Source of the DNA: Planoprotostelium fungivorum
Taxonomy: Eukaryota > Evosea > Variosea > Cavosteliida > Cavosteliaceae
Length of the DNA: 64,000 bases
Direction of reading: 5' to 3'
Assembly: GCA_003024175.1 (NCBI GenBank)
Contig: MDYQ01000292.1
Location: 62,001 to 126,000 of the forward strand
Under the pieces are notes generated by a model. That model ran no database searches. It had not been told where the DNA came from and saw only the letters and a list, made by a program, of their open reading frames with translations. This document shows positions 3,001 to 45,587 of the stretch, piece by piece. The stretch's first letter is position 1. Every line of letters begins with the position of its first letter. The translations under genes were made by a program, and so were the position numbers.

Positions 3001-3830
3001 AATATTCAGTTGGGGAAGTGTGTTATTTTTGACGATGATATGGCGCTCGTTTCTCTTCAGATCTTGAGCATCGGACCATTGGATGGTTAAGCGGGAGAGT
3101 TTTGATGAGGGATCATGCGTGTTGTTCATGATGGCGTGATGCGATCGCACGTCCGTGGTGTTGTCTGAGAAGGAGAAAGCGGATGAGCCCATCAGGTGGT
3201 TCGAGGTGAAGAGGAAGAGAGAGGATGCGATGGCGGTCGATGTGGATGATTCGGATGGAGGAGTGTGGAGGAGACTGACAGTCGTGTGGTTGAAGAGGCA
3301 ATCACTGAATGTAGAATTGGGAGAAGCATCTTGTGCCCGGATCTGTTCGCATGATTTTTAGAAGAGCACAAGAATGGATCGGCCCACCGTGATTCGTGAT
3401 TCATACATGCGAACAGATCGAAGGGTAACCTCTCTACAATTTGGTGATCTGACCATGCTGCAGCGGTCGATGTCCACAAGCTTCCAGAAGATTGATGGTT
3501 GGACATCGCAAGAGATCTTCGGAGCGTTGAGACAGGTGATTCTAGGTATCTGTATATCCTCAGTCTTTGTCTTCGGGTAGTAAACACCTGTGTTCCGAAA
3601 CCATTCGACCACCACCCCCGAATTTGAGAGGGCATCCGATCTCTGATGTTATACTGACCAGAAGATAGACACACGTTCGTACTATTATGTGGGATGCTTC
3701 TGCAGGGATTCATCCTGCCTCCACACGAGACAACATCATTTCCAGACTGACTGTCCACATATATCTCACAATCATCCAAAGAGGTGGCGGTGTATAAGAA
3801 GAGAGAAACACAAAGAAGCCGTGCGATCAT
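11..3830 (-). CDS. Beta-helix ectodomain, Cys-rich, multi-pass membrane protein (tandem copy 1)
   Basis: Start chosen at a Met followed directly by a hydrophobic signal peptide (MIARLLCVSLFLYTATS); another in-frame Met lies 20 codons upstream. Next comes a short Cys segment (CEIYVDSQSGNDVVSCGG), then several hundred residues of short beta/Asn-rich repeats with GGAISI and GSALSISGG turns, typical of right-handed parallel beta-helix (pectin-lyase-like, POMP-like) proteins. Two Cys-rich modules follow (CRPCASGTYF...CTRCPEKGVEC, then CPSGYC...GELCGGCADGYT...C). The C-terminal half has roughly 7-9 hydrophobic spans and ends in a short basic/acidic tail. Many short introns; the last (about 132-172) separates SHAFL from the final span. 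Likely a cell-surface receptor or adhesion protein; the ligand is unknown. The HRxGxLCGxC-GY module before a polytopic region recalls an uncharacterised family I associate with protists and cnidarians. Its C-terminal half is almost identical to the next copy. Confidence 0.75.
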
Positions 3831-8900: not shown

Positions 8901-9816
8901 AGATGGTGAGCGAGACGTCACACTTGTCCAGTCGATTTCCTACTATTCTCAAATCTGGTATATCATCGGTATGGAGATTGAGCACCACAGAAGGTAAGAC
9001 GTTCTTCTGTATGAGAAGGTGGCCCGTCGAATAATCAGTACCGTGTTGTCCGATCCATGCGATGAGAATGGTGGGAGACTGTTGGCTTAGATATGTGGGA
9101 TCGAAGGTGTTGTTGACGAGCTCTTGAAACGATTGTATCTTATTCGTGGTCTTGTCCCAAAAGGAGAAACGAGATGAACCCAGCATGCGGTTGTTGTTGA
9201 ATCGGAGGAGAGATAATGACGTCATCGGTGGTGGAGATGCTTCAGAAGCCGAATAGTGGACCAGATCCAGTTTGGTGTTGTCGAATCGACAATCGCAGAC
9301 GGTCGAGTTGAAAGAATTGCCCATTGATGTGATCTGTTGATGGGTCGATCTCATATCCATCATCACCATCTCACCAACAGTTGTGTATTCAAGAAGGAAA
9401 TCGAATTCAAGGTGATTGTCGTGCATTCTGGTTCTATGAATTGGCAATTGTTGATGTGTAAACGGTCCCAATACAATGAGGGCTGCACATCACAAGAGAT
9501 CTCTACTTCCTTCTGACAGAATATCTGAGGGACCTGTTCTTATCAGTTTTCTTTCCGAAGATCACTGCACCTGTCCATTCGAGCCTGCTGGTTTCCACGC
9601 TCGAATTTGAGAGGGTAATCGATCCATAATGTTATACTGACCGGAAGACAGACACACGTTCGTGCTGTTATATGGAATGCTTATACAGGGGTGCAGCGGA
9701 TCACCGCAGGAAGCGCTGTCGTGACCGAAATGACCATCAACGTATACCTCACAATCGTCCAGAGAACTGACGATATGTAACAGGAGGGATAGACAGAAGA
9801 ATCGGTTTACCATCAT
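5980..9816 (-). CDS. Beta-helix ectodomain, Cys-rich, multi-pass membrane protein (tandem copy 2)
   Basis: Paralogue of the gene at 11-3830. Signal peptide (MMVNRFFCLSLLLHIVSS), the same N-terminal Cys block (CEVYVDGHFGHDSASCGD) and a long beta-helix ectodomain with TAGGAILISG turns. Then the Cys modules (CRPCATGTYFLGRG; CPSGYCNETAHL; GELCGGCADGYT) and several membrane spans, including TILVCTASIVLLPLPLVIIF. The last intron starts gtacgttc after SHVFL and is followed by IAIALPFIACLLIAIHKLW and a tail ending MLTTEEL. DNA at about 6153-6577 and 6710-7522 matches copy 1 nearly base for base at a constant offset of 5,982 bp, whereas the ectodomain exons are clearly diverged. Another in-frame Met lies slightly upstream (9834). 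Probable surface receptor or adhesion protein; ligand and signalling partner unknown. Confidence 0.75.
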
Positions 9817-19029: not shown

Positions 19030-22000
19030 TTATAGAGGCAACATCTCATCCGAGATGTCTGCATCCATAAAGTCATCATCGACCGTCTGAATCTGTTTCT
19101 TTCGAAGGTTGGCCGTGCTAGGTCTCTGCAATTGAGGTGCAGGAGCTCCACTGGAAGATCCCATGCCCATTGGAGAAAAGCCCGAAGAGCCAAAAGTTGG
19201 CGCTTTAGATGGAGCCGGCTCAGGTTTTCTGCTGGTGGGAGGTGCAGAAGCCTCGACGTAGGATGTCTGTAGAGATGATGCTCCTGACGGTGATGTCAGA
19301 TGAGGTGGAACACATGATGTCGAACTCACCCTTGATGACTGTCTTCGGTGCGACGATCTTCTGCTGTTGCTGGACGAGATTATCTGCCGTGTCGGTGTTG
19401 GGAGTGCCCTCTGCCGACTTCGCCGCAGCCTGCTCTGCTTTTCTCAAGCGAGTGACGTATACATCGACTTGATCTTTCATACCAAGATCGTTGCACAACT
19501 GAACGAGATAACGGATGGCTGATTCACACGTCAGTCATCGTTGATTTCACGGCTCTCATCGATGTCTCACATTCCACATTGTTTGGGTCCTTCAACAAGA
19601 TCTGCTCGTAATATTCTTTCGCTTGTCTGTACGCTCTCATGCGTCGGTAGCATGAGGCGATCATGAGCAGCCATTTGATGTCTTGAGGCTCCAACTGAGC
19701 GGCTCGCTTGAAGAATTCGATGGCCTTCTCGTACACCTGTCTTCCTCTCAGAATTCAGGTCGCGTGATGGATGCATTCACCTCTCCTCTGACATAGTAGG
19801 CGCCCAACCAGCTGATAACGTTCAAGTCAGCGGGGTAGTAACGGTACGATTCCATGTAACTCTGATGCGCTGCGATCTCATCATCGCTCTTTGCATAGAG
19901 GGCACCCTATCCACGATGAGATCATGATCGTTGATGATGTGATGACAGAGACGATCGTGGTGATCAGACTCACGAGACGTTGTAAGACGACTGGATCAGA
20001 CGGTACCACGGCGAGCAGAGCCTTGTAACGATCTTCAGCCGCCCTGATATCGCTGTCTTTTCCCAAGCCCTCCAGATTCGAGGCGATCTGGTACAATACC
20101 TCCGGATGATTGGGGATGACTTGTTGCAGCTTGTTGAAGTACAAAAGTGCCTTGTCGTGTTGATCGAGCTTCTTGTGCACCAGACCTGAGTGAATTGAGT
20201 GGCTGGTTCCTGCATCGTTATGATATCACCCAAATTGTACAGCGCCTCCACACAATCTGATTCGGCATCGATGGCATTCTGATACATCTCCTTCGCTTGC
20301 TCCAACTTCTTTTTGACGAAATAGATGTTTCCCTTGTTAACGAGAGCGTTGGCGTTATACTTGTCCGCCTTGATCGCAATGTTTGCGTACTTGTCACTGT
20401 TTCGATAATCTTGCTCTAAAAAGTACAAAAATGCGAGATTCGTAGCCGCCGGACCAGCCATCGTGTGATCTTTCCTCTCGAACCCCTTCAAAGTCTCTAT
20501 CGCCTGACAACACGGTCATCATCGTGAACTTCATCTCAGATCATCATCACCTTTGTGACATCCTTCTTCTTCATGAACGTCAACGCCTTTGATATCTCTA
20601 ACTCGTTGGCCAGATCCGAGTTCTTTGTCGCGTGCAGAGTGTCGACCACGAAATCGAATCCAGTGGCAAAGTCTTTCTCAATGTGTGGTGCGATGAGCTT
20701 CGAACCCAGAATAATGTACCGCTCGGCAAATTTGTTCCTCTCTCGGATCTCTTGCCTCAGGGCATCGTTGGGGCCCAGATTCTCCTCTTCTGTCTCTTCT
20801 TCTTCCTCTTCTGCACCTTCTGGACGGCTGAAACTGCTTCTCCCGATGGTTAGGATGGAAGAATAAGAAGATTTCATCTTTTCTGGGTTGTTGAAAATGT
20901 ACTGAGACAAGAGCAGATTTAAGCCTTCACGAGATCAGATGATGACGATGAGCTGGAACGCACCCGATCGATAGTCTGGGCTGGCCTCCATGATGGTCTC
21001 GAAGGCTTGTACTGCGTCTTGAAATTTACCCAATTTGATGAAAGAGCAACCGATGTTTCTCATGATGCGAAATCTGAAGGGAGTGACGTTAGGACACCGA
21101 TGGGGACGAGGGTGCAAATCACCTGATTTCCTTGTTCGTGTTCTGAATCTGATCCATCGCCATACGATACATCTTAATTGCATCTTTGTAATTTCCCCTC
21201 TCGTAATGTATGTTTCCCATGTTTACTCTCATCCGACCTGCTTGCACGAAATTCTTGTTCTTGACAATGATATTGTAAGTGTTCAGAGCGTCATTGTACA
21301 AACCATTCTTGTGATACCTTCGTGGACGCGATCAGATGACAATGCGATGATGGAGTCGATCTCACTGGTTGGCTAAATTGAAGTAGACGACATAGGTGAG
21401 ATCAGGATTCTGCGTCTCGTGCAATTCTTTGCTTTCTCTGTACTTTGTGAGGGCCTTCTCTTTCTTGATGGCCTCCTTTGCCTTCTCCAATGCCACTCTG
21501 GGCTCTCCTCTGGCTGTGTAGACGGCGGATTCATCGATGAGCGAGTGAACCTTTTTCTCCATGTTTCTCGCTTCGATTTCAGGACTGATCTCCAATTTTT
21601 TGACGGGGCCGCGACCTACATTGCGAAAATGAGATCGGATGTGGCGTGTGATTCGTGACAGACGACCGACGATTACCTCCTGGACCTCCTGCATCGTATC
21701 TACCAGATTGGGGTCTACCCGAGTTGTATCCAGCTGATCCGATGGACGTCATTGGTCGAGCTGGTCCGTCAGCGCCACCTCTCGACGCTGTTTCGTGTGA
21801 GATAAATCGTCTTCTTTTGAGCTGCATGCGATTCACCTGGAGGACCCATTCTAGATGATACTCCCATTCGGCTGGCCGGTTGGTTCATGCTCATCTGAGT
21901 TGAAGTGTCTTCATACACTTCGACCGGTGCATTCTTCATCATCGCATCAGATCTCGTACGATGCTTGTCACCGCCTCACTTCGTAAGGGTAATCCTGATC

Positions 22001-22063
22001 GAAATTGTAATCGTCCTCTCCCTCTTCGTTCTGGATCTCTCCATTCTCCCACTGCTCAGCCAT
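19030..22063 (-). CDS. IFT88: Intraflagellar transport protein IFT88 (TPR protein)
   Basis: Start MAEQWENGEIQNEEGEDDYN; the acidic N-terminus resembles that of IFT88 orthologues. A Gly/Ser/Arg linker follows, then KKVHSLIDESAVYTARGEPR and ALEKAKEAIKKEKAL. A long run of tetratricopeptide repeats then begins: DLTYVVYFNLANQ, YNDALNTYNIIVKNKNF, RMRVNMGNIHYERGNYKDAI, MYRMAMDQIQNTNKEIR, IMRNIGCSFIKLGKFQDAV, later NALVNKGNIYFVKKKLEQAK, DCVEALYNLG, HDKALLYFNKLQQVIPNHPE and YEKAIEFFKRAAQLEPQDIK. The order matches human IFT88 and Chlamydomonas IFT88. It is a core IFT-B subunit required to build cilia. The C-terminus is Ser/Pro/Gln-rich and ends in an acidic MDADISDEMLPL, as expected. Its presence implies that this organism makes, or recently made, a flagellum. 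Confidence 0.93.
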
Positions 22064-28632: not shown

Positions 28633-31600
28633 TCACATGTGAACTAGACCGTAGATGTCTTTCTGTCCTTGAAACAAACTACTTCCACTCGTGGCTTGTT
28701 CGGAGCACAGCCTGCCCATGACATCTTGAATAGCCAGCCTCAACTCTACTTCTCTCCTGGTACACTGCGTGATGAGCGTGGAGATGGTCTCGTCCGCTCC
28801 TCTCGCGACGACGTAGCTCTGTCCTCCGACCTTGGTTCTCTTGACCATCTGAAATGCACGTCAGCGACGGACCGTGATGATGTGATGATGGTGGAGAAGA
28901 GACGATGATCATGTGTCGTTCTCACTTCTTTTTGGTTGTGTTCATCGTACAGATGTACGTCGTTCGTCACCATGGCAAAGAGTAAGACTCCGAAGCTCCA
29001 CACGTCAGAGCCGGCCTGATACGTTCCACTCTCTATCACTTCGGGTGCCTGTTACATTCACGTCAGAGTGATTTCACCATGGATTCTCACCGTGTAGACA
29101 CCGAAGGTATCAGGGTCCGCTTGGCTATTTATAGATCGAGTCAGATTCAAACCAGTGATTTTTGCGGAAATTTGACCGTCCGTGATGGAGAGCAGGATCT
29201 TGATGCTTCTGTCAATTTATCTTGCGAGGTGTGATGTCTCACCTTCTGAGGCGACAAGTGAATGTGAGTCGTGTTCATGAATGTCAGGTAAGATAGTCCT
29301 CTGGCCACATCTGCTCCTCTGCAACTCGTCATTCTTTTTCTCTCCACTCTCTTCTCACATGATATAGATGGATGAGGCGTTCAGTGCTTGTTTTACCATG
29401 TACTGCTGCAAGCTGCCCCCATTCATATACTCCATCACATAGTATCCTTCTGCACACTGTCAGCCATCTCTCCCTCACACGCGACAAGACAAGTACCTGC
29501 GAGGTCCTGACCGATGTACAAGATGATGTTGGGATGATGCATGCCCTGCTCACGTCATCACACGTCACAGTGACGTCATCTCTCACCTTCAGTGTCGTCG
29601 CTTCTACGATCAATTCCTTTTCTCTCTTCTTCTCTTTCGCCTTCTTGATCGCCACCGTCGTGATCTCGTCCAGCTTTCCCTTCCATATCTTGCATCTTCC
29701 ATCGTGTAGTACATCCTCATATTCGATCTTCATCTTGACATCGCTATATGCTCTCATAGCCATATTGACTCCGTTCTATCACAATTCAGTCATCTTCCAT
29801 TGTAGATGACACTCACGCTCGATCTCTTGCCTCTCAGCACGAAGTAGACGATGAGAGAGACGACGATGATCAGCAGTAACCCTCCACCTGCCGTACATGC
29901 TGCGATGATGATCATTGTGTTCTGACTCCGGGTGTTCGGCTGTGCGGGAGAAGCATCACTCTGTGCAGCTTGTGCAGGTTTGACGCCGAGAGTGAAATTC
30001 GTCAAGTGATTGCACTGACACACGATCACTTCATCTGCTCTCACTGTGGCGTTGCAGCCTTCTCTCTGCCATCTCTCTTCTGTCTCTTGCCACCACAGAC
30101 ACTCTGCCTCTGTGACTCGTCAGTCTTTCTCATCGTGTGTGCATCGAGTAAGGAGACATATCATACGTGTAACTGACCTGCAGAGGAAGGAAAAGAAGAT
30201 GGAAGGATGCCCATCGTGATGTTGATCAGCTCTGTTCCTGTCACATCTACTTCTCTTTCTCTGTCGTATACTGTCACTCCTATCACATTGCCATACCTGT
30301 TACATGTCAATCACAATATCAGTCAAGATCAATGTACATACGTTGTAGTGTTGTCTATCGATGCGAATGGATTAGAACTGATGCTAGAGACTGCCACAGA
30401 TATCTGCTCTGTTTCCACTTCAGTTTCGTTGTAGATGTGGAAGGATAGTGATATCACCTCGAGAAGAGATGGAAGAAGAAGGAAAGACAGCAGAGATGGA
30501 CGTGTTGGGCAATGTCACAGACAGACTGGCTGTCGATGTCACACTGTACGTGTTGACATACAAACTGCTGTCGTTCGTGCGCAGAGAGAAGCTAGACGAG
30601 TTCTTGAGAAGCACTGATGTCAGAGCGGACAAGATGCCTGGCAGCTGCAGTATGTCAGACACTCTTCTTCTCTCTCTCATCTCACCTCATCTACAGATAC
30701 AGTTGCTTGGTTGAGCACCGTCTGTCTTACGTCAGATGACATCATCACAGGTCATACACTCACTTGAGCTGCAGTCGCACTCAGGCTGCTGTTACTGTTG
30801 TAGATCTGATCGACTGACGTCTGACACGTCATCTTGCATCGTCCAGAAGGCTGAGCGGGAACACACGGAAATTCGTTGAACGTCAGATCGCAAATGGTAC
30901 CGCCTAAATACGGACCCTGAGCGATGGAATTGAATCGATTGTACGACAAGTCAATATACTGTGACATCAGTGTCGGTACTTGTCCCGTCAATTGATTGTG
31001 ACTGTCTCTTTCAGTCACTCTGCATTCTCTGCGCACATCACCTGGCGTTGATCTGTACAGTTTTCCAGCCAGAAGCCAGACTTCCATTCAACAGATTGTT
31101 CGACTTGCATCATTTCAATCTAAGAAATCGAGCACAACTCACCAGATCTAAGCTGAAACTGGGGACGTCAATCAACGCTGGAATGGGTCCAGACAGTTGA
31201 TTACCATGCAGATCGAGAGAATACAGTGCGTGCAGATTCGATATCGAATAGGGGATACTTCCACTCAGCCGATTGCCACTCAGATCAATGTACGTCAGAT
31301 ATTGCTGATTTACGCTCCAGCACGACGGAATACTTCCGTTGATCAGATTGTTCCGCTGTCACATGTCAGATCTGACGTGCATGTTATGTCGTCACCATGG
31401 TGAATGTCTGCAGGCTGGCGAGACTACAGATCTGGTTCGGAAGTGGACCCTCTACACGATTGCCGTCCGCGTTGAAATATTCGAGAGAATTCAACTTGCC
31501 GATGGAGTTGGGAATGACACCGGTCAGATTGTTGACTTCTAGATCGATGGAATAGACGCCAGTGAGGTTCCCGATGGAGCTGGGAATACTACCAGTCAGC

Positions 31601-33031
31601 TGATTGTCGCTCAAGTCCAAGTATTGTAGGGTCAGGTCCCCAATGGAGCTAGGAATATTTCCCGTCAGCTGATTGCTGTACAAGTTGAGGGTGAGGAGGT
31701 ATTTCATGTCTCCGATGGTACTCGGTATCGATCCGTTGAAACGGTTACCTATGGGGTGAATCAATGTCGATTCGTGATGGTTCGTTGTAGATGGACTCAC
31801 CGCTCAGATCGAGTGTCTGTAAGCCATTCATAGTGGTCAGCTGCTTGGGAATATTTCCCTCGAGCTGGTTGTTGTTGGCGGTGAAAGATGTGAGGCCCAT
31901 TTTGAAAATGGAGCTGGGGATGGTTCCACTGAATCGATTATTTTCCTGGGAAAATGAGAACATCATCGAACACGATCGCCATCGAGACGATGGACGATGA
32001 TGGATGATGGACGTGGTGATCGTGATGACGATGGATGTTGTCCATCGGACGATGATGAGAATGATGATCATCTCACGATCATGAGCACCGAGATCAAAGT
32101 GGAAGAGATCCAACCAGGGATGGGTCCACTGAAACGATTGTCGTTGATTCGGAGCGTAGTCAGATCCATAAAATTATTCCCAACAGGCCAGGTGGATAGA
32201 TCACCAGTCAGGTCATTATTTGACAACCATAGTTCTCGTAGATTGAGAGAAGCGAGCGATGATGGGGCGACGCCGGTCAAATTGTTGTTGTGCAGGGTCA
32301 ATTGATTCAGTTGTAGAAGGCTGCCCAAGTTGGTTGGAATCGTACCGTTGAGAGAATTATGATCCTGTCATATTCGATCAGATGATGATGATATGGACAG
32401 AGCCGAAGGGACCCACCAGAAAGAGTTCCGTCAGACTAGTCATCCCTGCGATGCAGGGTGGAATATTACCCTCTAAACGATTCGTTCCCAGGTTGAGTCG
32501 AGATAATTGATTCAGACGGCCTTCGACGATTAAAAGAAGAATTCAACATCACGTCTCACATATCGCATCAGGAATACCACCGGTCAATTGATTGATTCCC
32601 AGATTCAGAATCAGTAGATTAGGGAGGTTTCCGATGGCGGAAGGGACGCCACCGTTCATACCAGCCTGTATAGCGAGAACTTGCAATGTCGTTAGATTAG
32701 CAATCAGAGGGCTCAGGTATCCCGTGAAGGCCCACGGTCCAGGTTGATAGAATTCGATCCGAATGAGAGCACCATTCTGGCATGTAACTCCTCTGAAGTC
32801 AGTGCCATTGCAAAACTGATACCTGAATCAATCCAAAGATGAAACCGATATCCCATCTCACATCGTTGCCAATCCACAGAGTGGAGTTACCTACGGATCT
32901 TGAGAACATCTTAAGATTCTTCTCTCACCGTTCAATGTCTTCCAAATGGATTTAAGAGTCGCCAATGTGTCCGCTTCTACCGTGATGAAACAGCACATCA
33001 GGCATAAGAGCAGGATGGACGATGATCTCAT
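28633..33031 (-). CDS. LRR-GAIN/GPS-TM-pseudokinase receptor A
   Basis: Signal peptide MRSSSILLLCLMCCFITVEA, then DTLATLKSIWKTLNG and FCNGTDFQGVTC (LRR N-cap). About a dozen plant-type LRRs follow (for example LDLSDNQLTGSIPSSIGNLT, YLDLSDNQLTGSIP). A Cys segment (CDLTYNEFPCVPAQPSGRC, CQTSVDQIYNS) and a GAIN-like region with SLSVTLPNTSISAVFPSSS lead to a complete GPS: CLWWQE..RW..GCNATV..VIVCQCNHLTNF, with the HL/T cleavage site. One span follows (NTMIIIAACTAGGGLLLIIV), then a kinase-fold domain: VAIKKAKEKKREKELIVEAT (Lys and alphaC Glu kept), but the HRD region reads TTHIHLSPQKILLS and the DFG position reads AKITGL. TAPEVIESGTYQAGSDVWSF is intact, as is TLITQCTRREVELRL. Both catalytic aspartates are missing, so this is probably a pseudokinase signalling scaffold. 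About 15 short introns. Confidence 0.85.
31783..31800 (-). repeat. Donor-side half word GTGAGTCCATCTACAACG (receptor A)
   Basis: Starts an intron of the minus-strand receptor A gene; a related half word, GTGAGCTGATCTACAACG, starts the corresponding intron in receptor B (36156-36173). Confidence 0.8.
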
Positions 33032-33292
33032 GGCTTCTCTATTGAAGATGCGTTATGCTCTGCCTGTCTAGAGAAGGCATCAGCGTGTCTGCGGACAAAA
33101 ACGTGTCAGTCGGGTGTCCCCACGTCAAAATTGTACCTCTTGACGATTGAGGTGAAGGTGGTCGTGTTGTGCCATCAACGAATGAAACAGATTGTCCACC
33201 TATGACTGAAGAGTTCAGAGGTCCAACACACAACAAGAGAGATATGAATACAGATGCCCATTGAAAATTCATTTTGCGATGGATGTGCATGA
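33032..33292. other. Spacer between receptor genes A and B
   Basis: About 260 bp between the start of A and the stop of B, both minus. A minus-strand open frame (33039-33290) begins with MNFQWASVFISLLLCVG, which looks like a signal peptide, but nothing recognisable follows. It could be chance or a leftover 5' exon of another receptor copy. Confidence 0.4.
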
Positions 33293-36200
33293 TTAGATGT
33301 CAACAACGCCGTAATGATCTCTCTCCATGGGAGTAGTTCTGACTTGATCTCTCAGTGGATGAGTCAGCCTCCCCATAGCATCTCTGATCTTCAGTCTCAG
33401 CTCCACTTCTCTCCTCGTGCACTGCGCGATCAGCGTGGACATCATCTCGTCTACTTCTTCGACGGAAAATTTCAGCTCGCCGCACTTGATCTCGTTCACC
33501 ATCTGATGGATGTCAGCGATGATGTCTTGGATGATCATGTTGTCGATGATCATGTGTCGTTCTCACTTTCTTCTGTACATGTCTATCGTACAGATGTACA
33601 TCGTTCGTTGCCATGGCAAACAGTAACACACCGAAGCTCCACACATCCGAGCTGGCCTGATACGTTCCACTCTCTATCACTTCGGGTGCCTGTCACATTC
33701 AGATCAAGATGATACACCTGTACAGTGTGTCCTCACCGTGTAGACACCGAAGCTGTTTGGATTTGCTCGGCTATTTATAGATCGAGCGTGGCTCACGCCG
33801 GATATTTTCGCGGAGATTTCACCATCCGTGACGGAGAGTAATACCTATACCTATCAGTTCGTTACATCATATGATATCTCACCTTCTCTGGTGTCAAATG
33901 AGTGTGAGTCATATGGATGGACGTCAGGTAAGACAGTCCTTTGGTAACGTCCGCCGCACTACAACCAGTCACTTTCGTTTCTCATCTCTCTTCTCACATG
34001 ATGAAGACAGAAGAAGCGTCCAGCGCTTGCTTTGCCATGTACTGCTGCAAGCTACCACCATTCATATACTCCATCACATAGTATCCTTCTGCACACTGTC
34101 AGCCTTATCTCCCTCACACTCGACAAGAGAAGTACCTGCGAGGTCCTGACCGATGTACAAGATGATGTTGGGATGATGCATGCCCTGCTGACGTCATCAC
34201 ACGTCACAGTGACGTCATCACTCACCTTCAGCGTCGTCGCTTCTGCAGCGATGTGGTTGACCCCATCGTTTCCCTTCTTCTTCTTGATGACAATTGTCGT
34301 CGTTTCATCCAATTTTCCCTTCCAGATCTCGCTGAAATCTCCACGATGAATGACGTTCTCGTACTCGATCTTCATCTTCTCTCCCTTCTCTGTCGTCATG
34401 GTGACATCCACTCCACTCTACATCGCGTCAGATGTTTATCGATTTTTACATCATTCACCGTTCGTCTCCTCTTGATCACTAAGAAGACGATGAGAGAGAC
34501 GATGACGATCAGCAGCACTCCTCCACTTGCCACACATGCAGCGATGATGATGACTGTCGTCTGATCTTTTGGACTCAACGGAAGGCTTTCGTTTCGGTGC
34601 GAGCTGTTTGCAGTTCGGGCGCCGAGAGTGAAGTTGGTCAAGTGATTGCACTGACACACGATCACTTCATCTGCTCTCACTGTGGCGTTGCAGCCTTCTC
34701 TCTGCCATCTCTCTTCTGTCTCTTGCCACCACAGACACTCTGCATCTGCCGTCTGTCAGCTGTGTCCCTCCTTTTGTCACATGTCTTGTATCGAGATGAC
34801 TCACCTGCAGAGGAAGGAAAGGAAGATGGAAGGATGCCCATTGTGATGTTGATCAGCTCTGTTCCCGTCACATCTACTTCTCTTTCTCTGTCGTACACTG
34901 TCACTCCTATCACATTTCCATACCTGTCTCTTGTCAATCACAACGTCATTTGAATATCACTAATAAACACACGTCATAGTGTTATCTACAGATGAGAATG
35001 GATTAGAACTGATGGTGGAGATCGCCACTGTAATCTGCCCTGCTGCTACTTCAGTCTCGTTGTAGACGAAGACGTCACCTCCAGAAGAGACCACAGAGGG
35101 AGGAAAGGTAGCAGAGACAAAGGTGCTGGGAATCGACGCCACCACGCCATTCACAGAGGATCCATTGTACGTGTTGACGTAGAGACTGATCGATTTTGTT
35201 TGTAGAGAGAAACTCGACGTGTTCTTTAGAAGGGAAGATGTGATGGCCGAAACGATGCCGGGTAGCTGATGCCGTCAGACACTCTTCTTCTGATCCTCTT
35301 CACCTGAGCCAGTGGTACCACGACTTGGTTGAGTATGGTCTGTGATGACGTCATCGCACGTCATCACACGTCATCATTTTACCTGAGCTCTGTCTACCGT
35401 GATACTGCTGCTGCTGTTGTAGATCTCATCGACTGACGTGTGACAGGTCACGTTGCACTTCTTCGAAGGTTGGGCGGGAACACACGGAAATTCATTGTAC
35501 GTCAGATCGCAAGATCCGTAGTTGGACAGAGAATCAACACCGATCGATGAGAACCGGTTGTGAGACACATCGATGTACATCGCATCGATGCGCGGTACTT
35601 GTCCCACCAATCGATTGTGACTGTCATACCTCAATCTCCTCGCATCTTTCATCACTCACCTGATGTTCAGACGTGTCACGGCCCATCCCGAAGACAGAGT
35701 ACCGTTCAACAGATTGTTCGACTATATCGCGTTATTCATCGTGATGGATATTCCATCTTCCCACCAGATCGAAATTGATACCGCGCAGGTTCGATACGGA
35801 AGCCGGAATCGGTCCAGACAGCTGATTACCCTGGAGGAACAAGAAGTACATCGGCCCGAAATCAGAGAAGACGTCGGGAATACTTCCATCCAATCGATTG
35901 TTCTGCAGGGACAGATCCGTGAGAAATTTCAGGTCTCCGATGGAGCTGGGAATGCCGCCCGTCAGTTGATTGCCACTCAGATCGAGATTTTCGAGAGAGA
36001 TCATGTTCTCGATGGAGCTGGGAATATTTCCGGTGAGACGATTGTTGTACAAGTAAAAGCTTTTCAGACTCGAGAGGTTTCCTATGTCTTCCGGTATCGT
36101 TCCGTTCAACTGATTGCCTGCGTACAGTTCAGCGTGACGTACGTCTGATGGATGTCGTTGTAGATCAGCTCACTATCTAAATAGAGCGTTATGAGATTCT

Positions 36201-37387
36201 TCAGGTTCGTGATTTGCCGTGGGATAGTTCCAGATAGCTGATTGTTGTACATACTGAGGTACGTCAGATTGACGAGTTGACCGATGGAGCTGGGAATGGT
36301 TCCATAAAAATGGTTGTTTTCCTGGAAATCGTGAACTTCGTCGATGATCGATCATGATTGTCATGATGTGCATCATGATCGTGATGAGACAAGCAGATGA
36401 CGTCGACGTACCATCTTCCATTGTTTCAGTGAAGTGTCACCGATCCAGTCAGGAATGAGCCCCGTCAGATTGTTGTTGTCGATCACGAGCGTATTCAGCT
36501 GGCTGAAGTTCTTCCCCACCGGCCACGTGGACAGATCGCCCGTCAACTTATTCTGAGACAACCACAGCTCCCTCAATCGATTGAGAGAGGAGAGAGGAGG
36601 CAAGAAGCCGGTCAATTTGTTCAAGTGAAGCGTTAATTCGGTCAGTAGAACGAGGTTGCCAAAGTTGGTTGGAATCGAACCACTGAGGGTATTGTTGTCC
36701 TGTCGTGCTCGATCAGATGATGAGATGGAGAGATCAGAAGAGGATGTGAGGATGATCACCAGATAGAGGGAGTAGAGTTTAGTCATTCCTCCGATGCAGG
36801 GTGGGATGTTGCCCTCTAAAAGGTTCGTCCCCAGATTGAGATAACCCAATTGAGTCAGTTGGCCTTACGATAGAATGAGAACCGAAATTCAACATCACAT
36901 CTCCTTTGAATCATCTCACATATCGTGTCGGGAATATGACCGGACAGCTGATTGACTCCCAGGTTGAGAGCCATAAGATTAGATAAGTTTCCGATAGTAG
37001 AAGGGATGCTGCCATTCATCTGACTTTGGATGGACAAATAGGCCAGGGTCGGAAGATCTCCAATTAGAGGATCCAATGAGCCGTAGAAAGGTTGTGTTAT
37101 CAATATCGCGAGGAGTTGTCCACTTACACATGTGACTCCTTGGAAGTCGGTGCTGTTGCAAAACTGAAATGAATCAATTGGAGAACGATATGACATTACT
37201 CCATCCGATCCCTCACATCATTTCCCGTCCATAAAGTCGGATCACCTGCGGCTATCAATCCCTCTCACGGTTCCAGCTGCTCACCATTGAGCGTCTTCCA
37301 GACAGATTTCAGATTCAGCAGTGTGTCTGCCTTCACCTGCATGAGACAATACACCGAACATGCGACCAGAATAGAGGGTAGACGCAT
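33293..37387 (-). CDS. LRR-GAIN/GPS-TM-pseudokinase receptor B
   Basis: Same architecture as receptor A. Signal peptide MRLPSILVACSVYCLMQVKA, DTLLNLKSVWKTLNG, FCNSTDFQGVTC. LRRs include LDLSGNQLTGGIPSSIGDLK and LTLHLNKLTGFLPPLSSL. The Cys segment CDLTYNEFPCVPAQPSKKC and the GAIN-like part lead to the GPS (VIVCQCNHLTNFTLGA) and the span TTVIIIAACVASGGVLLIVI. The kinase-like domain starts MKIEYENVIHRGDFSEIWKG and has the ATP-site Lys in VIKKKKG. The HRD region is MTHTHLTPEK, the DFG position is AKISGVSH, and TAPEVIESGTYQASSDVWSF is kept. The glycine loop is degenerate (RGDFSEIWKG). With both catalytic aspartates replaced it should not phosphorylate. GAIN/GPS and kinase exons are much closer to A and C than are the LRR exons. 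Confidence 0.85.
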
Positions 37388-37752
37388 GGCTGCTCTTGTA
37401 TCGTCCCTCTCTCTTTTGTGTCTCTTGTCAACCTCAAGATTGTTATGTCACCTTACTGTCCCCACACCCAGAGTGTCCGTCAATGCATTGAGATCTAAAA
37501 TATCTCTTCTTCTTCTTGTGCTGTCCAGTGTATGAGATAGAGACTCCTCCGTGTTCTTCTTGGAATATCATCGTGTGTTGTGTGATTGGCTCATCTGTGT
37601 CGTCTGACACAGAACCAACCCTCCCATCTGTTTCTATTTTTGTCTATGTGGACACTAGACACTCTCCAGTGCTTGACGACTCCAAGGTTGACATAAGTCA
37701 TGTGGGTGTAGATATACAACAATTCATTTCAGATAACCACGGCTCATTTCAG
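37388..37752. promoter_or_regulatory. Divergent region between receptor B and F-box/ankyrin-like gene
   Basis: About 365 bp between start codons on opposite strands; must hold both promoters. No clear TATA or repeated motif. A plus open frame runs through from about 37516 into the downstream gene, so the downstream start could be further upstream. Confidence 0.4.
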
Positions 37753-39628
37753 ATGGGAGGGACATTAGATCCTCTATCGAGACTGACACGTGATGCGCTT
37801 GTGCACGGTGTTCTAGAATATATCCCTCTCATAGATCGATTGCCTCTCGCATTCGTTTCTAAGGGCTTGATGGGTGCGGTTCATCAATCAGCCCATTCGG
37901 AGGACATGGAAACCGAAGTGCATCGTAGAGTCCCGCGGGGGATCTGTGTGACGGTATTGATTCGATCTCAAATCATCTTCTCATTTGAGACAGAGATGGT
38001 TCTATCAGGAGTTAAAGGTGTTACCCTCTAGAGGTCATATCCTCTCGACTGTCGAGACAGGCGACATCGACAGTTTAGAATACATCTTACATCTTCCACC
38101 CAAGAGCTGCGTCATGCAACGTCCTCAATTAGAAAAAGGGTTGATAGCGCTAAGTTTCGTGGCGCATATGCTCAGTGCAACTCTTCAAGGCTCAGGTGAA
38201 TGACGATCTCATCCAGCATCGACATCGCATTCTATGCTGCCGTCGAAAACAATAGAATTGAGTCCTGTAGGACTTCGGCACGATCCTTCAGCGATGGACA
38301 CACACATGAACCGCTTCAAGTTGAAATCTCTCATCACGGCCGTCGCCGCCCATCATCATCACGTCCACATCTTAACCAAGATCCTCTTAGACACAGACAA
38401 GATCTCTCTCTGGAACTCCACCCCGGAAGACGTTCACTTGAACGTACGTACTTTACGTCGGACCCACTGACCCCCGCAGGAATTATTTCAGAGGGCCCAC
38501 GTCCACGAGCTCATGGACGCATCCACCGCCGCCACTTACGGCTCTCTCTCCACTCTCGTCTGGCTGATGGAGCACCAGCTCCTCGAGCTCCGTTGGGACG
38601 GGACCCATTCATCCCTGGACCGTATTGTTACGGGCCAGATCGAGCGGGGAGACATCGAGTGTCTAGAGTGGCTCGAAGAGAAAGGAGTCTTCGAACAAGT
38701 GCAACCGACAGCGGCATTGAGATGGATAGAATCAGCCATCCTCTCTCGCGACATCAAGAGAGTCGAATTTATCTTACGAGTGTGTCGCATGCAGTCACAG
38801 ATCGATGCGAGGATGATCGGTCTGTCGATGAGAGGAGAAGACGAGATGTTGACGGATTGGTTGATGGAGAGACATCCGTGTTCGCTGGATTCGTTGTTGC
38901 CATCTGTGCCGGATGTACAAGCCCCGTGGCTGGTCGAGTGGATGAATCGAAGGGAGCCCGTCGGGCCAGATCGATACGAGAGGATCATACTGTACCGTAC
39001 GGGTGATACCAAAGGACGGACGGATCCCAGGGAAATGATGGAGAAGCTGTGGGAATTGGGTGTTCGTCCCGAGGACAAGGCTTTCGATCTGGCGGTACAG
39101 AAGGCAGATTTTACGGTGTTACACTGGATGAGAATGAAAGGGGGAGGAAGAGAAGAGTATGAAGACACGTTAGATTGGATTTGGAGCAACAGACACCGAC
39201 TGGATGAGAAGAAAGAGAAGAAGAGCTTCCGGCTCAACTTTTTCAAGAAGAGAGAGAACAAGGTAGGGAGGGTAACGAGGGCTCTGTTTGAAGATGCGTG
39301 GGACTGTTACATTCCGTCTGTACTAGAATGGCTACACAAGCACAAATATGAGTGAGTCGGGGAGAACGTGATCGTCATCGTGATTGACATCTTGAACAGG
39401 AGAGATGACGAAGACGGACTGACCATGTGTCATCGGGTGGCTCTGAAACAGGGTTCTACGCCCGCCCTGAGGTGGCTCATCGAAAGAAGGTATCACATGA
39501 GAGGTCAGCCATCACATTATACGGAGGAAGAAATATTGGACTGTCTCATGGTGTGGAATGATGAGGGGTGTTTGGAGAGTACATCCTATCTTCGCCGGTT
39601 ACTCAACGACCTCGGAACGATAAAATGA
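37753..39628 (+). CDS. F-box-like protein with ankyrin-like repeats
   Basis: The N-terminus MGGTLDPLSRLTRDALVHGV and LEYIPLIDRLPLAFVSKGLM has the hydrophobic spacing of an F-box (LPxxLxxxIL...L....R...VSKxL). Splicing by frame then gives RWFYQELKVLPSRG, ILSTVETGDIDSLEYILHLP, AVAAHHHHVHILTKILLDTD, ELFQRAHVHELMDASTAATY, GSLSTLVWLMEHQLLELRWD, RGDIECLEWLEEKGVFE and QKADFTVLHWMRMKGG. The recurrent pattern AxxxGxxxxLxWLxExG is the degenerate ankyrin-like repeat abundant in amoebae and giant viruses. A last exon after HKHKYE adds KQGSTPALRWLIERRY. A likely role is substrate recruitment to an SCF ubiquitin ligase; the substrate is unknown. The long opposite-strand frame here is a mirror of the coding sequence. 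Confidence 0.7.
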
Positions 39629-40269
39629 GCTTTTGTATCTGTCATGCTGTGAATATGACCCGCATATCATTACAGTCGTACCGGATTGTAGATCGTAAAA
39701 AGGATTAAAAGTCAATCCCTCTACAACGATGAACAACTTGCTATGAATAAACACTTTTAGCTTATCGTCAATCGAGCTAGTCTTATCTTACCTGTTAGAG
39801 GTGTGGACCCATCGCCACGACGAGTGGTACCCTTAAACGAGCCCCAAAGCTCACAGTATTGTCTATTTCATCGGTGCAATAACGACTTCTTCCATCCTGC
39901 CTTTTTCACAAAGCTACTGTCGCACTGTCAATACCATAAAACGATATTGAATACGTCTGAGACGACGATGGAGAGCCTTGACACGAAAGTGAATTTAATA
40001 CAATCTACTCCTTGGCGCACCTGCACGCCACCAGCACGTCCTCACAAGCCGCGTCTGTGTTGTAACAAATCAATCCTCACTCGTCGACGCAGCTTTTGAG
40101 CTCTTCAACCACCAAAAAGTGAAATTGAGCACTTCAACTTGAAGTGGTTCGGGTGCACGTCGCATCATCCGGATGATTCGTTCCATCGCGATGATTCGCT
40201 AAGACAGCGAGTCGTCAGAGACTTTTCAACTGTTGACATTCTAACTTTCTGCCGAGAAGACCTCCCACC
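39629..40269. other. Intergenic stretch, nothing recognised
   Basis: About 640 bp between two plus-strand genes. It has short open frames only (39803-40099) without domains; no tRNA A/B boxes, hairpins or repeats stood out. Confidence 0.45.
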
Positions 40270-40979
40270 ATGTCTATCAATGATCTATCACGGCCCGACC
40301 AATGGAGGCTGGCTATCACCATCTATGTTTGCCTATTGATCGTGAGAGACATTTAGTGCAGAGACGAGAAGTCTTCTGAATCCTACGAAGAGTGGTGGAT
40401 TCTTCAATCTGATCTGGTCCTGTGTTTTCTTTCTTCCTCAGGGATCGTTCTGGCCGGGCATCACGTCCAGCGTCTCCCAAGTGATTCCATCCATTTTACC
40501 AGAGTTTCTGAAGAGAAACAGATCCTCGCCGGGCTCTTTGGAATCTCTGCGGTCCAACGCAGTGCCTCTACGTTCGTCGTCAAATTGGTGATTAATCCCA
40601 TCTCAACCGAAATGCTGTTTTGATAAGAAGCACCAGTACATCGGATGTCTTTCGGTAGGAACTCTTCTGAATCTCGGGCTGATGATCGGAGGCCTGACCA
40701 GAATCAATCGCTGGAAGATCTTGTGTGAAGAGTGTTCCAGCAAAGACATCTTGGTGATGGTCGTCATCCTGACCATCTTTGAACTTCTCATCGGGGTGAG
40801 TTCAACACTACTCCTTCTTTCTCATGCAAGAATAGTTGTCGTGCATCTACTGCGCGAAATCTTATCACGACACGATACAAGACGAAGACATCTTTGGTAC
40901 CATGGACCATGAATCGATGGATAACGCATCATTACTGAGCGACCCCGATCACTACGTACAAATGAAGACAAGCTTGTGA
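40270..40979 (+). CDS. Small four-span membrane protein, unknown function
   Basis: MSINDLSRPDQWRLAITIYV opens a first hydrophobic span. Further hydrophobic stretches are LVLCFLSSSGIVLAG, YIGCLSVGTLLNLGLMIGG and DILVMVVILTIFELLIG followed by SCIYCAKSYHD. The C-terminus is acidic (DEDIFGTMDHESMDNASLLS). Introns at about 40590-40629 and 40797-40836 are convincing. Near 40345-40356 the frame meets a TAG that only an unusually short intron (15-30 nt) or a different first exon would remove, so the front may be wrong or the gene damaged. The four-span layout with a polar loop recalls tetraspan proteins, but no family signature is visible. Confidence 0.45.
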
Positions 40980-41247
40980 TTTCGGTGTTTTCGTATTTTG
41001 GTCGAGAGTTGCTTCTGGTTCTTGTTCTTTTCACAACGACAGAGGATCCTTACTGTCACGGTGAGACATCGAGTCACAGCTGGACAACCACTTCTGAAGC
41101 AGAATTTCTGTGCCTCTTTCACCGTGAACAGAGATCAGGTGTTCTCTGAAGATCTGACATCTGGGGACATTGACATGACTTGTAAGAGGACAAACGTTGG
41201 TTCATAGGACCTACCGCGCATTTTGCTGTGCGCCAAAGAGAGCAACC

Positions 41248-44200
41248 ATGCAGACTTGGACTCTTCTCCTCGCGTGTCTGGCCTCTTGTTTCATCGCAAT
41301 CGACGCTGATACACTGGCAACATTGCAGACCATTTGGAAGACACTCAACGGTGAAGCGAAAGAAGCCAATTGAAACTCACGCGATCTAGGTAACACCACG
41401 TTATGGACAGGGAATGATGTGAGGTCCATCTCATCATACGTCCACATTCTAAACACAATTCAGTTTTGCAACGGCGCAGACTTTCAAGGAGTCACCTGCG
41501 AGAGTGGAGTCCTCGTAGCGTTGTCACTAGGCATGTTTACCACAACTGTGGGCACACTGAGCCCATTGATTGGAAATCTGACGACACTGCGCTTCATCGG
41601 CATCCAATCCAAAGTGAATGGCGGCATCCCCCAATCCATCGGAAACCTTGCTAATCTCACCCTTCTCGACCTGGGAAATAATCAGCTGACGGGAGTCATT
41701 CCAGATACGATATGTGAGCCGCAACCTGAGATCCTTTCGAATACTCACAAAGACATCGAAGGTAATCTGAACCAACTGTCCTATCTCAACTTTGGAACGA
41801 ATCGTCTCGAGGGTAACATTCCATCATGCATGGGTCGATTGACGAAACTCACCTCTCTCTTTCTGGTATTGCAATCGATTTCTTCAGTCTTTCTTCGACA
41901 TCCATCTCGAATCATCTCTCCATCCATAACATGTCATCTCTCCTGATCTGATCTATGTTAATAGGATCACAACTCTTTCAACGGTTCGATTCCTTCTAGC
42001 TTTGGTCAACTCGTGCAATTGACCAAATTGACCCTTCACTTCAACTCTCTCACTGGTGTCGTCCCTTCTTCTCTCTCCTCCCTCAATCAGCTGACGGAGT
42101 TGTGGTTCAATGACAACCGGCTCATCGGTGATCTGTCAACGTGGCACGTGGGGAGGAATTTTAGCCAATTGATCGTCCTCAATGTCGCTGATAATCAACT
42201 GAACGGCACGATTCCAAATTGGATCGCAGACACTTCAGCATCTCAGTTGTATCTGGTGAGCCATCGCGATGATCTTCATCTTCACGGTGGAAATTGATTC
42301 TCCGCAGGAGAACAATGGTTTCACCGGAAGCATTCCAAACTCGATCGGACGACTCGTCAACCTGACGTGGTTTACCGCCTACAGCAACCAGCTGACTGGA
42401 CCCATTCCTCCCGAGATAACAAATGCGAAGGGTCTACAGATCTTCGATGTCAGCCGTGAGTCCATCTACAACGATCGATCACTGTGGACGTTAACGTGTA
42501 CAGTGAATCGATTGAACGGAACGATTCCAGATGGCATCACGAGTCTTTCAAATCTGACGGCTTTGTATCTGTACACGAATCAGCTGACAGGAAGCATTCC
42601 CAGCTCCATTGGGAATCTGAAGAAACTGAGCTATCTGATGCTGAAGTTCAATCAACTGGGAGGCTCAATTCCGTCGCAGATCTGCGATCTATCATCCGTC
42701 AAAACCATCGGTCTGGTGAACCATCTGAATTATGCGCCACATCTGACGTACAACAGTGGACGAATCAGCTGAGCGGGAGCATTCCAACGTGTCTCAGCGC
42801 AACCGCTCTACCCTACCTGACATATCTCGATTTGAGTGGTAACAAATTGACGGGATCGATACCTCCCCTCATCGGTACCCTGACTGGTCTGACGGACCTA
42901 TACCTGGAGGACAATGAGTTGACCGGAACAATACCGGAAAATCTATCGAGCGTAAGCTCGGCGAATTTTTTGTGGCTGCAGAACAATCAGCTGACGGGTA
43001 ATATTCCGAGTTCTTTTGCAAGAGTAAAGTTCAACAATTTGAACATGGTGAGATCGTGAGATGTGTTTTCCACCGCTGACGATGTCGATCAGTCTCGCAA
43101 TCGTCTGAATGGATCCATGCCGAGTTTGAACGCCAATGTCTTGGATGTCAGGTGACTGACACATCGTGAAGTCGATTGACACGATGTGACAGTTACAATC
43201 AACTGACGGGATCGATACCGAAGATGATATCAACAAGACTCGATCTGTCACACAATCGATTCGCTTCCATCGGCATCAACTCGTTCAATCAGAACATCGG
43301 CTCCTGCGATCTGACGTACAACGAATTTCCGTGTGTTCCCGCTCAGCCTTCTGGTCCATGCAAGATGACCTGTCAGACGTCAGTCGATCAGATCTACAAC
43401 AGTAACAGCAGCCTGACTGCGACTGCAGCTCAAGTGAGTGCATGACGTGTGATGATGTCATCTGACGTCAGACAGACGATACTGAACCAAGCAACTGTAT
43501 CTGTAGATGAGGTGAGATGAGAGAGAAGAAGAGTGTCTGACATGCTGCAGCTGCCAGGCATCTTGTCCGCTCTGACGTCAGTGCTTCTCAAGAACTCGTC
43601 TAGCTTCTCGCTGCGCACGAACGACAGCAGTCTGTATGTCGACACGTACAGTGTCACATCCACAGCCAGTCTGTCTGTGACACTGCCCAACACGTCCATC
43701 TCTGCTGTCTTTCCATCTTCTTCCATCTCTTCTCGAGGTGATATGACTATCCTTCCATGTACATCGAGACTGAAGTGGAAACAGAGCAGATAGCAGTGGC
43801 AGTGTCTAGCATCAGTTCTAACCCTTTCGCATCGATCGACAACACCACAACGTATGTATATTGATCTTGACTGACATTGTGACTGACATGTAACAGGTAT
43901 GGCAGTGTGATAGGAGTGACAGTGTACGACAGAGAAAGAGAAGTAGATGTGACAGGAACAGAGCTGATCAACATCACAATGGGCATCCTTCCATCTTCCT
44001 TTCCTTCCTCTGCAGGTCAGTCATCTCGATACAAGACATGTGACAAAAGGAGGGACACAGCTGACAGACGGCAGATGCAGAGTGTCTGTGGTGGCAAGAG
44101 ACAGAAGAGAGATGGCAGAGAGAAGGCTGCAACGCCACAGTGAGAGCAGATGAAGTGATCGTGTGTCAGTGCAATCACTTGACCAACTTCACTCTCGGCG

Positions 44201-45587
44201 CCAGACCTGCACGAGCCGCAGTGCAGAATGACACCTCTCCCGCACAGCCCAACAATCAAACGACAATCATCATCATTGCAGCATGTGCAGCAGGTGGAGG
44301 AGTGCTGCTGATCGTCATCGTCTCTCTGATCGTCTACTTCGTGCTGAGAGGCAAGAGATCGAGTGTGAGTGTCGTCTACAATGGAAGACGTCTGACGCAT
44401 TGTAGAGTGCGGTTGACATGGCTTTGAGAGCACAGAGCGACGTGAAGATGAAGATCGAGTACGAGAACGTCATCCACCGTGGAGATTTCAGCGAGATCTG
44501 GAAGGGAAAATTGGATGAGACAACGATGGTAGCAGTCAAAAAGGCGAGAGATAAGAATGGTAGAAGAGGGTTCGTTGCAGAAGCGACGACACTGAAGGTG
44601 AGTGATGACGTCACTGTGACGTGTGATGACGTCAGCAGGGCATGCATCATCCCAACATCATCTTGTACATCGGTCAGGACCTCGCAGGTATTTCACTTGT
44701 CGCGAGATGACATATTCTGATGGAGAGCAGAAGGATACTATGTGATGGAGTATATGAATGGTGGTAGCTTGCAGCAGTACATGGCAAAGCAAGCGCTGGA
44801 CGCTTCTTCTGTCTTTATCATGTGAGAAGAAGAGAAGAGACGAAGAATGACTGGTTGTAGAGCGGCAGATATCGCCAGAGGACTGTCTTACCTGACGTCC
44901 ATCCACATGACTCACACTCATCTGACACTCGCGAAGGTAAACCCAGATGATATATCCCAATATTGAATTTCTCTTTCTCCGCATGAAATATTTACAAATG
45001 TAGATCCTGCTCTCTATCACGGGCGGTCAGATTTCCGCAAAGATTTCTGGTATCAGCCACGTACGTTCTTTAAATAGTCGAGCGGATCCAGACAGCTTCG
45101 GTGTCTACACGGTGAGGATGCATAGCGAGATCGTTCTGACGACATCGTGACAGGCACCCGAAGTGATAGAGAGTGGAGCGTATCAGACCAGCTCTGACGT
45201 GTGGAGTTTCGGGGTAATGATGTACGCTATGGTGAAGAATGATGTACACGTATACGATAGACGTACCGAGAAACAGGTGAGAACGACACACCATCATCAT
45301 CTCTTCCTACCGTCATCGCATCATCATCATCGTGTTCGCCAACGTCATCATTGCAATAATTTGATTCATAATAGATGGTGAAGAGAACGAAGAGTGGAAG
45401 GGAAAGTTTCGTCGTCACAGAAGCAGACGAGATGATAGCTACACTCATCGCGCAGTGCACGAGGAGAGAAGTGGAGCTGAGACTGAGAATGCAAGACGTC
45501 ATGGGGAGGCTGACGGTTCAAGTGAGAGACGAAAGAGGAGGATACAGTTACGGAGGCAAAGACACATACGGAACGGTGGACTTGTGA
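41248..45587 (+). CDS. LRR-GAIN/GPS-TM-pseudokinase receptor C (inverted copy)
   Basis: Opposite orientation to A and B. Signal peptide MQTWTLLLACLASCFIAIDA, DTLATLQTIWKTLNG, FCNGADFQGVTC, then about 12 LRRs (LLDLGNNQLTGVIPDTICE, LYLYTNQLTGSIPSSIGNLK, YLDLSGNKLTGSIPPLIGTL). The Cys segment CDLTYNEFPCVPAQPSGPC and a GAIN-like region (SLSVTLPNTSISAVFPSSS; VIGVTVYDREREVDVTGTEL) precede ECLWWQETEERWQREGC and VIVCQCNHLTNFTLGA. The span is TIIIIAACAAGGGVLLIVIV. The kinase-like domain has VAVKKARDKNGRRGFVAEAT, then GMHHPNIILYIGQDLAG and YYVMEYMNGGSLQQYMAKQA. MTHTHLTLAKILLS stands in place of HRDLxxxN and AKISGISH in place of DFG; TAPEVIESGAYQTSSDVWSF is intact. The C-terminal helix is TLIAQCTRREVELRLRMQDV. 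Probably a signalling pseudokinase receptor cleaved at HL/T. Confidence 0.87.
42456..42473 (+). repeat. Donor-side half word GTGAGTCCATCTACAACG (receptor C)
   Basis: Half palindrome fused to the 5' splice site. The same 18 nt occur inverted in the orthologous-position intron of receptor A (31783-31800). Confidence 0.8.
44596..44637 (+). repeat. Palindromic intron conserved in receptors A, B and C
   Basis: The intron before GMHHPNIILYIG is almost entirely an inverted repeat (TGATGACGTCA ... TGATGACGTCA around CTGTGACGTG). The same intron sequence is found, inverted, in receptor A near 29549-29590 and in B near 34189-34230. Introns normally drift fastest, so this points to recent conversion between copies. 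Confidence 0.75.

Follow-up and report, generated by a model that had tools for sequence, protein, structure and literature searches.

The GAIN domain has been studied mainly as the front end of the seven-transmembrane (7TM) adhesion G protein-coupled receptors (aGPCRs), in which it is difficult to tell the effects of cleavage from those of stalk agonism. In a 64,000-nucleotide (nt) stretch of the Planoprotostelium fungivorum genome (assembly GCA_003024175.1, contig MDYQ01000292.1, positions 62,001 to 126,000; hereafter the window), three related genes, A, B and C, are predicted to share with aGPCRs such as latrophilin and GPR56 a GAIN/GPS region with the HL/T cleavage signature and a profile match across the GAIN-B region; unlike aGPCRs, they replace the 7TM part by a single membrane span with a kinase fold, and carry a plant-type leucine-rich repeat (LRR) head. 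A GPS on a non-7TM receptor is also found in the polycystin-1-like proteins, which have many spans against the single span of A, B and C, and, by eye, no listed GPS match is close to any of the seven PKD_channel matches listed for this genome. The LRR head, single span and often catalytically poor kinase fold recall the LRR receptor kinases of plants, among them receptor pseudokinases like CORYNE, described as a pseudokinase co-receptor (PMC4983110), but A, B and C have GAIN/GPS ahead of the membrane, and the likeness is one of architecture, our kinase tree being confined to this genome. The amoebozoan TKL receptor kinases GDT and DRK of Dictyostelium likewise have a signal peptide, one span and a TKL-type kinase; nine TKL receptor kinases are reported there, as against 150 scored GPS matches here, rk3 has a TIG domain, and the available part of that account names no GPS or LRR head (PMC1420674). 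The protist LRR receptor-like kinases of a pan-eukaryotic survey, which reports them in Amoebozoa and in a deep 'others' category, share the LRR-membrane-kinase order, but its main text mentions neither GPS nor pseudokinase (PMC13091385). In the described GPCR-TKL/K fusions a GPCR-related part is joined to a TKL kinase, but those fusions carry a 7TM, whereas A, B and C fuse GAIN without one; the same source reports GAIN and the aGPCR 7TM of non-holozoans on different genes, besides 7TM-kinase fusions (PMC12716839).

Read against the whole genome, A, B and C are intact predicted members of a large family, one of single-pass receptor pseudokinases that are apparently autoproteolytic. Each gene almost certainly encodes a presumably secreted LRR head, a GAIN/GPS region, a lone membrane helix and, in the cytoplasm, a kinase fold that lacks its catalytic Asp. 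A Pfam scan of the spliced proteins returned LRR families, GPS (PF01825) and protein kinase (PF07714) in all three, and hydropathy gave exactly one strong membrane span in each, in agreement with the combination proposed in a first-pass annotation of this DNA. The spliced models have no internal stops, their introns are all GT-AG and 38-131 nt long, and the proteins are 63-68% identical in pairwise comparison. The exon encoding the GPS and the transmembrane (TM) helix is separated from the first kinase exon by 41 nt in each gene, which is too short for a terminator and a promoter, and GPS and kinase thus belong to one gene rather than to separate mRNAs; they are likewise paired at 19 of 20 random loci (see below). 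The outer limits annotated for the cluster, 28633 and 45587, are the ends of models A and C, whereas the starts of B and C had to be moved to 37387 and 41248. Genes of this genome have numerous short spliceosomal introns, and the splice finder was seeded with 44 introns from trusted predictions for A, B and C (GT-AG; 40 of the 44 of 38-60 nt; many with a CTGAC-like site 5' of the acceptor) and then retrained. The start codons of the three genes, one false intron (in the GAIN part of B), one missed intron (in the LRR part of B) and the separation of C from an upstream gene were set by hand against the paralogues. The predicted features, in window positions, are the following.

28633..33031, minus strand: gene A, 22 exons, 1114 amino acids; N-terminal signal-like stretch, LRR, GAIN/GPS, TM and predicted pseudokinase, in that order
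33293..37387, minus strand: gene B, 20 exons, 1050 amino acids; order of parts as in gene A
41248..45587, plus strand: gene C, 22 exons, 1092 amino acids; order of parts as in gene A
30893..32779, minus strand: plant-type LRR array of A (exons within; Pfam)
35512..37127, minus strand: plant-type LRR array of B (exons within; Pfam)
41500..43304, plus strand: plant-type LRR array of C (exons within; Pfam)
30003..30832, minus strand: GAIN-like region of A up to the cleavage bond (family profile)
34639..35451, minus strand: GAIN-like region of B up to the cleavage bond (family profile)
43365..44181, plus strand: GAIN-like region of C up to the cleavage bond (family profile; 96% identical to A)
29991..30104, minus strand: GPS motif of A (PF01825, E 1.1e-9; HL/T at 30008-30000)
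34627..34740, minus strand: GPS motif of B (PF01825, E 1.1e-9; HL/T at 34644-34636)
44080..44193, plus strand: GPS motif of C (PF01825, E 1.1e-9; HL/T at 44176-44184)
29835..29915, minus strand: single membrane span of A (hydropathy)
34474..34554, minus strand: single membrane span of B (hydropathy)
44266..44346, plus strand: single membrane span of C (hydropathy)
29776..29816, minus strand: 41-nt intron of A, GPS-TM exon to first kinase exon (gene model)
34418..34458, minus strand: 41-nt intron of B, GPS-TM exon to first kinase exon (gene model)
44365..44405, plus strand: 41-nt intron of C, GPS-TM exon to first kinase exon (gene model)

The region that precedes the GPS very probably has the GAIN fold. 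Whereas LRR, GPS and kinase were all recovered with Pfam profiles, the Pfam GAIN model had no match in A, B or C at E 0.01, and GAIN was recognized through a profile of the family itself. A single GAIN-region query against the PDB matched aGPCR structures, chiefly via the GPS part; a profile built from 15 diverse GAIN regions of the family, with the GPS included, matched 24 distinct sequences at E 1 or below. Of these, 23 are aGPCRs, the best being GPR56 (9s9u, 7.3e-13), and the remaining one is an unrelated reductase (E 0.18). Several of the matches extend over the greater part of the 209 profile positions, among them latrophilin-1 (4dlq, 36-199) and the adhesion GPCR G6 (5-204). The autoproteolysis motif annotated in the GPS is borne out: PF01825 is above its cut-off in A, B and C, the Cys, Trp and H-L-T/S pattern is present and HL/T is intact. 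The GPS of each protein is predicted to be cleavage-competent, and self-cleavage at HL/T is likely. By hydropathy, a segment within the GAIN region of B lies barely over the threshold (1.61), and an N-terminal hydrophobic stretch is above it in A and C and below it in B. Separately, one stretch of the GAIN region is an open frame in B (34973-35265) and out of frame in A (30409-30457) and C (43738-43784), where it can be read as an intron of 49 and 47 nt, respectively; the difference may possibly reflect intron gain or loss among the paralogues.

The first-pass picture of an isolated cluster was incomplete. A PF01825 profile search of the genome (36.86 Mb, 471 contigs) gave 150 scored matches from 176 candidates, all above the curated cut-off and one with an internal stop, and the stretch downstream of the GPS was read at 57 of the 150 places (L003, at C196:626, was left out of the 57, and three short translations were left out of the motif alignment). 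Because the first loci had been picked partly for a nearby kinase match, we added a random draw of 20 from the 114 GPS places whose 1.4 kb downstream was not yet to hand (for two of these, part of the downstream DNA had already been read). The GPS match was present at all 20 and a PF07714 match at E 0.01 at 19, which excludes a chance association; at the exception, L047, no kinase follows the membrane span. This sample replaced a count of GPS-kinase neighbours across the genome based on the PF07714 matches, because scores were available for only 134 of the 1388 candidates in that list. Among the 57 places, 52 have a kinase (that of L029_29860 counted from reading frames), three do not (L047, L021_52113 and L022_55341) and two are truncated where the sequence examined stops (L027_24442 and L030_735). 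The three without a kinase (at C36:60513, C351:52113 and C351:55341, respectively) consist of a GPS, a membrane span and a short tail, and resemble plant receptor-like proteins. The cleavage His and Thr are present at 57/57 places, one having Phe for Leu, and the start of the stalk is almost invariant, reading H-[LF]-T-[NSY]-F and then S/T in every case. Some GPS motifs look as if they were shedding one disulphide while keeping HLT: the second Cys of CxC is gone from L029, L039, L037 and both copies of L030, and L037 and L030 have lost the Cys of GC as well. The parts ahead of GAIN in relatives look LRR, beta-helix-like, lectin-like or Ser/Thr-rich by eye. A domain scan of five relatives gave LRR over the cut-off in two, nothing beyond GPS and kinase in L017, and matches below the cut-off in two others (Beta_helix, 24.6 bits against 25.9; B_lectin, 20.8 against 32.4). 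Long mucin-like Ser/Thr-rich repeats separate head from GAIN in L012, L019, L024, L025 and L028. Scans of viral and prokaryotic contigs with the GAIN profile gave pattern matches in 5 and 12 stretches, respectively, and no relative among them.

The kinase-like domains of the three proteins lie as follows.

28708..29733, minus strand: kinase-like domain of A, HIH at the HRD position (29266-29258), GLN at the DFG position (29153-29145)
33365..34375, minus strand: kinase-like domain of B, HTH at the HRD position (33906-33898), GVS at the DFG position (33799-33791)
44448..45512, plus strand: kinase-like domain of C, HTH at the HRD position (44913-44921), GIS at the DFG position (45049-45057)

PF07714 matches A at E 2.7e-34, and in a PDB search with the kinase domain of B, HTHL aligns on the HRDL of Src. 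With the DFG register set by alignment with Src and with family members that retain DFG, the DFG Asp is Gly in A, B and C, as it is in relatives reading GFG. D166 and D184 are thus both replaced and K72 is retained, and by the rule that loss of K72, D166 or D184 marks a pseudokinase, as stated in PMC1420674, all three are predicted pseudokinases. The VAIK Lys (VAIK in A, IVIK in B, VAVK in C), the alpha-C Glu and APE are retained, and the catalytic-loop Lys and Asn positions have changed too (HTHLTPEK in B). There is a strong likelihood that these domains do not carry out phosphotransfer. The annotated replacement of HRD by HIH or HTH, like the retention of the ATP-site Lys and of APE, agrees with the alignment; for DFG, the loss of the Asp stands, but the triplets given (TGL, SGV and SGI) begin one residue too early. 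As Gly occupies the Asp position in all three, the conclusion of a catalytically dead kinase scaffold, predicted from the absence of both catalytic Asp, survives the correction. Nor do the replacements come from mis-joined exons, since both motifs lie inside exons, away from the junctions.

Loss of the catalytic residues extends through the family. Both Asp are kept in 3 of the 51 kinase domains with a readable HRD loop (18 from the random sample and 33 picked by match rank or a nearby kinase match), and in one (L046) of the 19 kinase domains of the random sample, the 19 including L034, whose model lacks the catalytic loop. The DFG position is unreadable in L031 and L027_15948, both of which have lost D166. 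The members with both Asp are L015 (HGD, DFS), L017 (HTD, DFG) and L046 (DID, DFR; lacking the customary His and Asn), and since L015 and L017 are otherwise canonical, active-looking siblings, for which the first-pass annotation had suggested looking, do exist. For scale, 11% of Dictyostelium kinases are reported as predicted inactive by K72, D166 and D184 (PMC1420674). Two other kinases of the same genome, too few to serve as a control, have HRD and DFG (L010), or DFG with an HRD not found by pattern (L009). With HRD and the neighbourhood of D184 masked, a quick maximum-likelihood tree of 49 kinase domains places A, B and C in a clade of 19 rows (SH-aLRT 98), none of which has D166. The two canonical members fall in a separate clade of five rows (96), where the other three rows lack D184 and one of them D166 as well. 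The fewest changes on the tree are four for D166 and five for D184; support is by SH-aLRT only, with no bootstrap, and the tree is weak at its deep forks and has five very long terminal branches. The dead kinases of A, B and C are under purifying selection: the ratio of nonsynonymous to synonymous divergence (dN/dS) of the kinase part is 0.20, 0.21 and 0.24 in the three pairs, lower than the 0.28-0.29 of the LRR part. Moreover, dS between A and C is 0.137 in GAIN and 1.64 in the LRR part, and a 40-codon GPS core is identical in DNA between B and C, though the genes are on opposite strands; together these values point to gene conversion of a common chassis beneath diverged heads.

We favour, with moderate confidence, a cleaved single-pass receptor that would signal through its pseudokinase. 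The GAIN domain would cut the chain at HL/T during maturation, head and stem staying paired non-covalently. Binding to the LRR head, or a pull on it, would strain or shed the head and cause the stem, membrane helix and pseudokinase to repack. The pseudokinase may then work as a docking partner that can be switched, recruiting an active kinase or turning it on allosterically; that kinase may be one of the few relatives in the family with HxD and the DFG-type Asp retained. Such an engagement can be likened to that of a kinase-dead EFR variant, reported still to enhance BAK1 (PMC11259431). We put signalling through a partner kinase at about an even chance. Varied LRR heads on a shared GAIN-TM-pseudokinase chassis make the set behave as a recognition repertoire, and a role in recognition seems to us as plausible as its opposite.

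Several points weigh against this explanation. Some pseudokinases stay active through other chemistry, and the retained Lys-Glu pair makes ATP binding possible. No kinase follows at three of the 55 GPS loci that could be read, so a kinase is not required in every member, and the partner kinase is a guess. Moreover, dN/dS of GAIN (0.13-0.33 over the three pairs) is in A-B (0.33) and B-C (0.30) no lower than that of the LRR part (0.28-0.29, a rough figure, as LRR dS is close to saturation). Finally, the architecture, cleavage and kinase inactivity of A, B and C are predicted from genome sequence, and the gene models come from a purpose-written splice-aware finder trained on these same loci.

Alternatively, the cut may serve to shed the head, in contact with substrate or prey or in the clearing of ligands, with the kinase fold as a cortex or trafficking scaffold and no receptor signalling at all. 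The 3/55 readable loci with a GPS and a membrane span but no kinase would fit such a role in adhesion or as a decoy, as would the relatives with adhesive-looking heads and Ser/Thr-rich linkers (beta-helix and lectin matches below cut-offs). We nevertheless consider it unlikely, given the recognizable kinase fold in 19/20 random members and the purifying selection on it in A, B and C.

The first-pass annotation proposed a tethered-ligand receptor; on this reading the freed stalk, TNFTLG, would itself be the ligand and could act on its own stem, on a neighbour or on a separate 7TM protein. In aGPCRs it is on the 7TM bundle that the freed stalk acts, whereas A, B and C have a single strong span and no known receiver. 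The stalk start conserved at 57/57 places is that of aGPCRs, but in aGPCR structures this segment (TNF[ST]) would lie within the GAIN fold in any event, and its conservation is no proof of agonism. Regulation by a stalk agonist has been reported for polycystin-1 (PMC11458180), itself no 7TM protein, so that a missing 7TM does not by itself exclude a tethered agonist. The genome search with PF00002 gave no 7tm_2 match, but its control was blind; the result carries little weight, and we do not claim an absence of 7TM GAIN proteins. On the other hand, the stalk and TM part (dN/dS 0.25-0.68) has the highest ratio of any part in two of the three pairs (0.68 and 0.59; 0.25 in A-C), and we regard a tethered agonist as improbable.

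A few atypical kinases are known to be active by unusual chemistry, and if the kinase domains of A, B and C were among them, the term dead would be wrong. Retention of the VAIK Lys and the alpha-C Glu would be in keeping with this, and an active plant pseudokinase has been reported (PMC9403797). However, the catalytic and the metal-binding Asp are both lost, the loop Lys and Asn positions differ (HTHLTPEK in B) and D166 is absent from the entire 19-row clade, which makes such activity very unlikely. That separate genes or decaying pseudogenes were mistaken for fusions is barely credible: the models rest on genome sequence, one GPS place elsewhere has a stop (C61) and some relatives (L034, L037) have truncated models, but 41 nt between exons leaves no space for a terminator and promoter, the frames of A, B and C are open, dN/dS is about 0.2 and GPS and kinase co-occur at 19/20 random places.

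Returning to the cleaved receptor that signals through a pseudokinase, the family may constitute an undescribed receptor class whose conserved core is GAIN self-cleavage and not phosphotransfer, with some 150 cleavable single-pass receptors bearing interchangeable LRR and probably beta-helix or lectin-like heads on a mostly pseudokinase chassis. We advance this tentatively, as a proposal with somewhat less in its favour than against it. A search of titles and the beginnings of abstracts, which most subscription papers lay outside, returned no GAIN or GPS single-span receptor kinase, and a prior mention is possible. PMC10445921, as far as available, covers Protostelium and reports that GAIN domains went undetected in the family 2 GPCRs of Amoebozoa; in the present genome GAIN is abundant, but on kinases. 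If the proposal is true, this amoeba has a repertoire on the scale of the plant receptor kinases, and GAIN is able to drive signalling without any 7TM partner. The cleavage residues are kept in 57/57, yet what follows them is one helix and a kinase that is mostly dead, which would offer a direct test of GAIN cleavage without a 7TM pocket. The family would also be a large natural experiment in the repeated loss of kinase catalytic residues with retention of the fold.

Elsewhere in the window, 11-3713 and 6234-9816 (both minus strand) hold tandem related predicted membrane proteins, with a front that is beta-helix-like by eye and very similar C-terminal halves. A predicted TPR protein at 19030-22063 (minus strand) is IFT88-like by eye and would imply cilium genes in the organism.

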